A stretch of 64,000 nucleotides of DNA from an uncultured Paracoccaceae bacterium (lineage in GTDB: Bacteria > Pseudomonadota > Alphaproteobacteria > Rhodobacterales > Rhodobacteraceae): positions 1 through 64,000 of the forward strand of contig CANMTR010000012.1 of the NCBI GenBank assembly GCA_947500825.1, read 5' to 3'. The notes beneath the pieces were generated by a model, which made no database searches, was not told the DNA's origin, and saw nothing but the letters and a program-made list of their open reading frames with translations. This document shows positions 2,719-4,518 of the stretch, one piece after another. A program made the translations under genes and the position numbers. The number at the start of each line of letters is the position of its first letter. Position 1 is the stretch's first letter.

Positions 2719-4305
2719 TCAGACCACGTCGCGATAGTTGATCTCGGGCGTGTCGGACCCCTCGGGGACCAGACGGCGCTTGACTAGCAGCCGGTTCAGG
2801 GCGGCAATATAGGCCTTGGCGCTCGCGACGACCGTGTCGGTGTCCGAGGATTGGCCGGTCACGATACGCCCCGATTCCTCCAGCCGGACGGTGACGGTCG
2901 CCTGCGCGTCCGTTCCTTCGGTCACCGCGTGGACCTGGTAGAGCTGCAGCCGCGCGGAATGATCGACGAGGCCCTTGATCGCGGCGAAGGTCGCGTCCAC
3001 CGGGCCGTCGCCCTGGGCGGTGATCTGGCGATCCTCGCCATCGACGCGCATGGTCAGGTCGGCCGATTGCGGCGCCTCCGTGCCGCAGATCACGCGCAGG
3101 AAGGTCAGTTCCAGCGCGTCCTCGGCCGCACCCTGGGCCCGGACAAGGGCGTCGATATCCTCGTCGTAGACCTCCTTCTTGCGGTCGGCCAGCGACTTGA
3201 ACCGCACAAAGATGTCCTGGAGCTGGTTGTCGCCCACGTCGTGGCCCAGCTCCTTGAGCTTCGAGCGCAGCGCGGCGCGGCCCGAATGCTTGCCCATGAC
3301 GAGGCTCGTCTCCTTCAGGCCCACGTCGGCGGGGCGCATGATCTCGAACGTCTCGGCGTTCTTGAGCATGCCGTCCTGGTGGATGCCGCTCTCGTGGGCG
3401 AAGGCGTTCTTGCCCACGATCGCCTTGTTGAACTGGACGGGGAAGCCCGAGACGGTCGCCACCCGCCGCGAGATGTTCATGATCCGCGTGGTGTCGATCT
3501 CGGTGTGGAAGGGCATGATGTCGCCCCGCACCTTGAGCGCCATCACCACCTCCTCGAGCGCGGTGTTGCCCGCCCGCTCGCCCAGCCCGTTGATCGTGCA
3601 CTCGATCTGTCGCGCGCCGCCCTCGACGGCGGCGAGGCTGTTGGCCGTCGCCATGCCAAGGTCGTCGTGGCAATGGGTGGCGAAGATCACGTCCTCGGCG
3701 CCCTCGACCTCGGCGATCAGGCGCCGGATCAGCTCGGCCGATTCCACGGGCGCGGTGTAGCCCACAGTGTCGGGAATGTTGATGGTCGTGGCGCCGGCCC
3801 TGATCGCGATCTCGACCACGCGGCGGAGATAATCCCACTCGGTCCGGGTCGCGTCCATGGGCGACCACTGCACGTTGTCGCACAGGTTGCGGGCGTGGGT
3901 CACCGTCTGGTGGATGCGGTCGGCCATCTCGTCCTGGGTGAGGTTCGGGATGGCCCGGTGGAGCGGCGAGGTGCCGATGAAGGTGTGGATCCGCGGCGAC
4001 GTGGCGTGACGCACCGCCTCCCAGGCCCGGTCGATGTCGGTGGGGTGGGCGCGGGCGAGGCCGCAGATGGTCGCTCGGCGGGACCGCTCCGCGATCTCCT
4101 TGACGGCGCGGAAATCGCCCTCCGACGCGATGGGAAAACCGGCCTCGATGATATCCACGCCCATCGCGTCCAGAAGCTCGGCGATTTCGAGCTTCTCGGC
4201 GTGGGACATGGTGGCGCCGGGCGACTGCTCGCCGTCACGCAGGGTCGTGTCGAAAATCAGCACCCGCTGCGGTTCGCGGGCGACGGCGTTGGTGTCGGGG
4301 TTCAT
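2719..4305 (-). CDS. leuA: 2-isopropylmalate synthase
   Basis: 528 aa; RVLIFDTTLRDGEQSPGATM, HCHDDLGMATANSLAAVEGGARQIECTINGLGERAGN, HESGIHQDGMLKN. Confidence 0.97.
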   Translation of the reverse strand: MNPDTNAVAREPQRVLIFDTTLRDGEQSPGATMSHAEKLEIAELLDAMGVDIIEAGFPIASEGDFRAVKEIAERSRRATICGLARAHPTDIDRAWEAVRHATSPRIHTFIGTSPLHRAIPNLTQDEMADRIHQTVTHARNLCDNVQWSPMDATRTEWDYLRRVVEIAIRAGATTINIPDTVGYTAPVESAELIRRLIAEVEGAEDVIFATHCHDDLGMATANSLAAVEGGARQIECTINGLGERAGNTALEEVVMALKVRGDIMPFHTEIDTTRIMNISRRVATVSGFPVQFNKAIVGKNAFAHESGIHQDGMLKNAETFEIMRPADVGLKETSLVMGKHSGRAALRSKLKELGHDVGDNQLQDIFVRFKSLADRKKEVYDEDIDALVRAQGAAEDALELTFLRVICGTEAPQSADLTMRVDGEDRQITAQGDGPVDATFAAIKGLVDHSARLQLYQVHAVTEGTDAQATVTVRLEESGRIVTGQSSDTDTVVASAKAYIAALNRLLVKRRLVPEGSDTPEINYRDVV

Positions 4306-4357
4306 TGGGGGTGTCCTCGGTATCGTCTCGTCTGGGTCTCGTCGGCGCGTACCGCCT

Positions 4358-4393
4358 CCTCTGAGCGCGTGCGCCGTAGGGCACGCTCAGAGG
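4358..4393 (-). promoter_or_regulatory. Hairpin in leuA leader (candidate attenuator element)
   Basis: Perfect 10-bp arms CCTCTGAGCG (4358-4367) and CGCTCAGAGG (4384-4393), extendable; contains the stop codon of the upstream leader peptide. Confidence 0.65.
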
Positions 4394-4443
4394 CGCGTAA
4401 GGAGAAGCAGACCAAGGAAACGACGGGCGGACATGTCGGGCAT
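4387..4443 (-). CDS. leu operon leader peptide (MPDMSARRFLGLLLLTRL)
   Basis: 18-codon ORF on minus strand upstream of leuA with 6 Leu codons among the last 9; stop codon lies in the hairpin. Below the length cutoff of the ORF track. Confidence 0.7.
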   Translation of the reverse strand: MPDMSARRFLGLLLLTRL

Positions 4444-4518
4444 GATAACCGCCGGATCGGCGAAGGAAACCCCCGATATTCGCCCCGCCCGGACCTTGCC
4501 GGACGGGGCCATGGTCGA

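Follow-up and report, generated by a model that had tools for sequence, protein, structure and literature searches.

The LEU element of Actinobacteria lies upstream of leuA and combines a leader ORF holding a run of Leu codons with a pseudoknot, without a terminator; its base stem pairs the Leu codons with the region of the leuA Shine-Dalgarno (SD) sequence (Seliverstov et al. 2005, PMC1262725). Mutations in the leader peptide of the Streptomyces coelicolor leuA leader had effects that are inconsistent with classical attenuation (PMC1262725). Corynebacterium glutamicum leuL, encoding MTSRANLLLLRRGGSQRS*, also places a run of four Leu codons ahead of leuA and is described as acting by transcriptional attenuation (PMC8709942). 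Two other systems come from organisms closer to the one studied here: uORFC-8-2, an amino-acid-specific upstream ORF that attenuates cysS in Rhodobacterales by means of cysteine codons and an intrinsic terminator at its end (PMC8632094), and trpL of Sinorhizobium meliloti, a tryptophan attenuator whose leader peptide is translated from a leaderless mRNA and which also releases a small RNA, rnTrpL (PMC10117765). In a survey of alphaproteobacterial RNA motifs, the sole mention is of the ilvB leader peptide (PMC1273637).

We analysed a 64,000-nt stretch of DNA (the window) from an uncultured member of the Rhodobacteraceae, in which a Leu-rich leader ORF and a hairpin precede leuA. The likeness of this locus to the actinobacterial LEU element is one of layout, as described by Seliverstov et al. 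(PMC1262725): the position upstream of leuA, the leader ORF with its Leu run, the pseudoknot, as seen in the host family, and the lack of a terminator are common to both. Unlike the LEU element, however, the element belongs to Alphaproteobacteria, serves mostly TIGR00973-type LeuA, carries its stop codon inside a covarying hairpin and, in the host family, has a predicted leaderless promoter; in addition, its long-range helix is often situated a little ahead of the SD rather than at it. The run of four Leu codons is shared with C. glutamicum leuL but the peptide end differs. As in the enterobacterial leu leader and the classical attenuators, Leu codons would be the sensor, but the U-tract terminator of those systems is absent. 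The locus resembles uORFC-8-2 in having an amino-acid-specific upstream ORF, although the codons and the gene are different, and resembles trpL in the predicted leaderless leader of an alphaproteobacterium. Rfam release 15, which includes the leucine leader, gave no relevant match in the window (E<=5) or in nine relatives (E<=1), a match to a viral pseudoknot being taken as chance. An earlier description of a leuA element in Alphaproteobacteria was not found in the literature searched, in which subscription journals are thinly covered.

Results

The leader ORF, its probable start and its putative promoter

The gene downstream of the leader, at 2719-4305 on the minus strand, encodes 2-isopropylmalate synthase (NCBIfam TIGR00973, E=1.5e-194); in the profile search it scored 647 bits against the equivalog cut-off of 599. 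Its start codon at 4305 is preceded by the SD sequence GAGGA (4314-4318) and lies 81 nt past the leader stop, close to the 80 nt of the original prediction. Two adjacent plus-strand ORFs at 341-1693 and 1693-2679 are convergent with leuA and end 40 nt from its end; judged by eye, they resemble genes for an XdhC-type and a molybdopterin-binding protein.

The Leu-rich ORF runs on the minus strand from an ATG at 4443-4441 to a TGA at 4389-4387, with the product MPDMSARRFLGLLLLTRL*, in agreement with the coordinates and the Leu run first assigned to it. Four consecutive Leu codons, CTG CTT CTC CTT (4399-4410, minus strand), form the proposed stall site. The reading frame and the stop of the prediction stand, but its start at the first ATG probably does not, because that ATG overlaps a conserved -10 box, TATCAT (4447-4442, minus strand). 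The second ATG, at 4434 and 7 nt from this box, is probably the true start, giving a leader ORF at 4387-4434 that encodes MSARRFLGLLLLTRL*; the spacing of the ATG and the position of the TGA are conserved in relatives. Upstream, 17 nt from the -10 element, is a -35-like element GTTTCC (4465-4470, minus strand), for which relatives have GTTTTC or CTTTTC. A scan of the leader promoter region for the sigma-70 consensus gave no match. Of 100 family loci, 81 have a TATNNT box 5-8 nt ahead of the leader ATG, and in 48 of these 81 the distance is exactly 7 nt, although the narrow spread of spacings is partly imposed by the promoter script, which favoured values near 7 nt. From the distance between the -10 box and the ATG at 4434, and from the overlap of the box with the first ATG, we infer that the leader mRNA begins at or near the AUG at 4434, that is, that the leader is leaderless.

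The promoter-like block as a whole (GTTTTC/CTTTTC, about 17 nt, TATNNT, 7 nt, ATG; 4442-4470 in the window) is conserved in family loci and predicts leaderless translation of the leader. Many family leaders also have GHI or AHI(P/A) a few codons past the start (e.g. L048, L049, L058 and L059), often together with a CATATC-like DNA motif.

A covarying hairpin around the stop codon

The TGA of the leader lies within a hairpin, P2, whose arms CCTCTGAGCG (4393-4384) and CGCTCAGAGG (4367-4358) form a perfect 10-bp stem on the minus strand, just as originally described. In an alignment of 54 sequences (A1), from which a covariance model was built, 97.4% of the cells of the P2 stem are standard pairs and both sides have changed in 7 of the 10 pairs. 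None of 500 shuffles reached the observed value, and sliding the partner strand lowered pairing to 24-53%. RNAalifold recovers the helix unaided. Covariation extends to the stop codon: whether TGA, TAA or TAG, it is balanced by changes on the opposite arm. In the window, the region as a whole folds better than its shuffles (z=-2.42).

In five loci (L118, L122, L128, L139 and L146), the Leu codons are retained together with a P2-like stem, yet the stem holds no stop codon, so that a buried stop is not indispensable.

Conservation in the family and the class

An ORF of this kind could arise by chance in a single sequence, and it is conservation that decides. Among 249 host-family genomes, 191 show the hairpin signature (190 of 248 genera), with at most one copy in each genome listed, and the signature stands ahead of leuA at every locus inspected; a reversed control pattern had no match among the family genomes listed. 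In the leuA upstream regions of 30 relatives, the leaders end in GLLLL(T/S)RL* or close variants and the TGA sits within CGCCTCTGAGCGTGCC...GGCGCG..CGCTCAGAGG. An anchored search yielded 92 distinct family elements, and in 90 of them the TGA occupies the same stem position.

In the remaining families of the class, the plan is shared although the sequence has diverged: CTN, CGA or CTN, CTTA, four bases and a stem of the form CCCCTGA.../...TTCAGGGG. The covariance model matches 67 of 85 leuA-upstream loci from other parts of the class, including 32 of the 50 that did not contribute to the model, and 72 of 299 genomes of the phylum. The host genome has one copy (E=1.3e-12); the next match, at C2:212265 (E=0.126), lacks Leu codons and was put down to chance. 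The only match in the phylum that falls outside the class (G532, E=0.007) is weak and ahead of an unrelated gene, and was judged likewise. When GTDB contigs were scanned for the core pattern CTTCGACTTANNNNCCCCTRA, a LeuA start lay within 420 nt in 74 of 80 among the matches listed; the remaining listed matches mostly reach the end of the available sequence. A match in Bacteroidales (L220), without leuA, was taken as chance. Hosts named include Gluconobacter, Acetobacter, Komagataeibacter, Asaia and Caulobacter. On this comparative evidence, the element precedes leuA widely across Alphaproteobacteria and is no local accident. The Leu codons and covarying stem that the original prediction sought in an alignment of leuA upstream regions are present both in the family and across the class, and the conserved promoter-like block is placed ahead of the leader. 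Both findings go against the grounds that had been named for refuting the prediction.

A pseudoknot and a long-range helix

The loop of P2 can form a pseudoknot. In the window, CGGCGC (4371-4376, minus strand) within the loop is complementary to GCGCCG (4343-4348, minus strand). Across 89 family loci, the loop sequence GGYGC has a downstream partner, GCGCC, and the base beside the pseudoknot covaries, being paired in 63 of the 89 loci against 37.2 +/- 3.4 in shuffles (0/10000). Outside the host family, only single examples of the pseudoknot are seen, e.g. L037.

A second helix, P1, joins the leader codons, including the Leu codons (4402-4424, minus strand), to the stretch that separates the hairpin from the leuA SD (4322-4340, minus strand). 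When the RNA of the window was folded from 4434, P1 formed in three blocks with pair probabilities of 0.84-1.0, the strands being 4424-4417, 4412-4408 and 4405-4402 on the 5' side and 4340-4337, 4334-4330 and 4329-4322 on the 3' side. This fold also predicts, for the window alone, that the SD bases 4316-4312 pair with UGUCC of the leader (4433-4429), with probabilities of 0.76-1.0. In comparisons in which each locus was paired with its own or with a swapped partner strand, the P1 duplex energy over 94 loci was -15.84 kcal/mol for native pairs and -12.50 +/- 0.28 kcal/mol for swapped pairs (0/5000), and the GC-matched score of the best gapless helix was 17.06 against 14.43, 16.97 against 14.03 and 16.26 against 14.41 in three groups (0/2000 each); these permutations leave some relatedness between rows, most of which represent different genera. 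Strong helices were found in 118 of 208 loci, where 53.6 +/- 7.1 were expected from swaps, and they lie mainly 7-36 nt ahead of the leuA AUG. Examples are CGATTCTTCG / CGAAGAATCG at L122 and AGATTCTTCG / CGAAGAATCT at L139. The comparative signal argues that a helix between the Leu-codon stretch and the leuA start region is real and conserved. In many loci P1 ends 15-35 nt ahead of the AUG, beside the SD and not over it; only some of the loci have the SD itself covered.

Codon choice and a second type of LeuA

The proposed sensing codons are rich in a rare one. CTT makes up 46% of the Leu codons at the leader end in the family and 57% elsewhere, as against 7% in LeuA coding sequences, which serve here as an approximation to genome usage. 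CGA, only 1.3% of the Arg codons in LeuA genes, is the usual middle codon of the leader end outside the family, a count that includes loci picked by a pattern that fixes CGA. Many leaders outside the family have two conserved Leu codons only (LRL).

A further family of the class, f13, carries the element in front of a different type of LeuA (TIGR00970/PRK03739), which the profile search bore out for L334 (792 bits). The leader end encodes LRL(T/M/I)RP in all seven f13 loci examined (L330-L336), and in five of the seven a P1 helix of 7-9 bp ends 8-15 nt ahead of the AUG, as in CTTCTTCTG/CAGAAGAAG and CTATCGCT/AGCGATAG. Since the same element precedes non-orthologous types of LeuA, it follows the function and not an orthologous protein. 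This suggests either that the enzyme gene was replaced behind a retained switch or that the switch was transferred.

Discussion

The locus shares with ribosome-mediated amino-acid leaders a short Leu-rich ORF ahead of leuA and a covarying RNA structure at the stall site and stop. The conservation across the class of the Leu codons, the stop position and the covarying stem lends strong comparative support to the leucine-responsive, ribosome-mediated control of leuA that was originally proposed. We consider it reasonably probable that the element is an attenuator of this kind that has no intrinsic terminator and probably acts on leuA translation. We infer its leaderless transcription, its response to leucine, the direction of that response and the translational level from sequence features.

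Transcription would start at or beside the leader AUG, so that translation of the leader would begin on a leaderless mRNA. A shortage of charged tRNA-Leu would halt the ribosome on the rare CUU and CUC codons just before the stop, where it would cover the 5' strands of both P1, with its Leu codons, and P2, with its stop codon. Both helices would be kept open, the sequence upstream of leuA would be accessible and leuA would be made. When leucine is ample, the ribosome would get to the stop inside P2 and depart; P2, the loop pseudoknot and P1 could then fold, with P1 taking up bases at and just upstream of the leuA SD and lowering initiation. Alternatively, P1 may act by blocking a standby region upstream of the SD. 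Simple sequestration of the SD is not supported by the folding test, in which a mask representing the stalled ribosome changed the predicted accessibility of the leuA start by a median of 0.004, compared with 0.027 for a control mask placed 30 nt upstream. The leader mutants of the comparable S. coelicolor leuA, with effects inconsistent with classical attenuation, count against the attenuator model (PMC1262725). So do the many leaders outside the family that have just two conserved Leu codons, and the many loci in which P1 stops beside the SD.

A different use of the same parts would be transcriptional attenuation without an intrinsic terminator, where translation of the leader gates the access of Rho or the pausing of RNA polymerase, and the folded elements (P1, P2 and the pseudoknot) would pause the polymerase or counter Rho. 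The absence of a U-tract is in keeping with this, as is the segment after P2, which is richer in C (0.297) than in G (0.236), as Rho-loading sites are; Rho-dependent attenuation of the tna type has been suggested for terminator-less actinobacterial leaders (PMC1262725). However, P1 is positioned relative to the leuA AUG, which points to translation, and a stall during starvation would expose additional bare RNA to Rho, which is the opposite of what a biosynthetic gene needs. We therefore regard control by Rho or pausing as unlikely, although worth keeping in mind.

The peptide rather than the codons could in theory be the sensor, if, with a ligand bound, a conserved end such as LRLxxP* or LLLLxRL* made the ribosome arrest at the stop, in the manner of TnaC and tryptophan. 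A Pro codon before a stop codon favours slow termination, and the end LRL(T/I/S/R)xP*, with its Pro ahead of the stop, is common outside the family. Arrest of this kind nevertheless seems improbable, since the stop varies between TGA, TAA and TAG and is outside the stem at some loci, family leaders usually end Leu-stop, and the conservation of particular codons (CTT, CGA) is explained by P1 and by stalling at rare codons. It is a little harder still to credit that the folded RNA is the target of a leucine-responsive protein, with the leader ORF secondary. Binding of this kind has been put forward for the actinobacterial LEU element (PMC1262725), and the loop sequence is strongly conserved in the host family, but it varies in other families, where conservation is seen instead in the ORF end, the stop and the Leu codons. 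Finally, a Leu-codon leader followed by a GC-rich hairpin recalls the classical attenuator of the enterobacterial leu operon, but this reading is very improbable and was rejected because no U-tract follows P2 (at most three T in the 8 nt after it in 208 of 221 loci); moreover, the hairpin encloses the stop codon, and the terminator scan gave no site in the leader, the sole terminator-like site found being inside leuA (4282-4261). The missing U-tract had been noted from the window at the outset, and holds there and in the relatives; together with the conserved pairing of the Leu codons to the leuA upstream region, it supports the early suggestion of a mechanism that differs from the classical terminator.

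Returning to the ribosome-mediated attenuator, we lean slightly towards seeing in it a leucine switch that is spread across the Alphaproteobacteria and has so far escaped description, its own Leu codons supplying one strand of a helix in the leuA start region. Its presence ahead of two non-orthologous isopropylmalate synthases suggests that it outlived gene replacement or travelled along, and it may be either related to the actinobacterial LEU element or convergent with it. If so, Alphaproteobacteria, among them the acetic acid bacteria, the sphingomonads and the relatives of Caulobacter, would gain a leucine sensor at the committed step of leucine synthesis that is without an Rfam family, and a clean case in which sensing codons double as part of the regulatory helix. 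The similar actinobacterial layout has posed a question of mechanism since 2005, one that tractable alphaproteobacteria could make testable.

Two leuA genes of the host family, at L023 and L076, are without the leader; there, another ORF ends just ahead of leuA, and the regulation of the gene must differ from the leader type.
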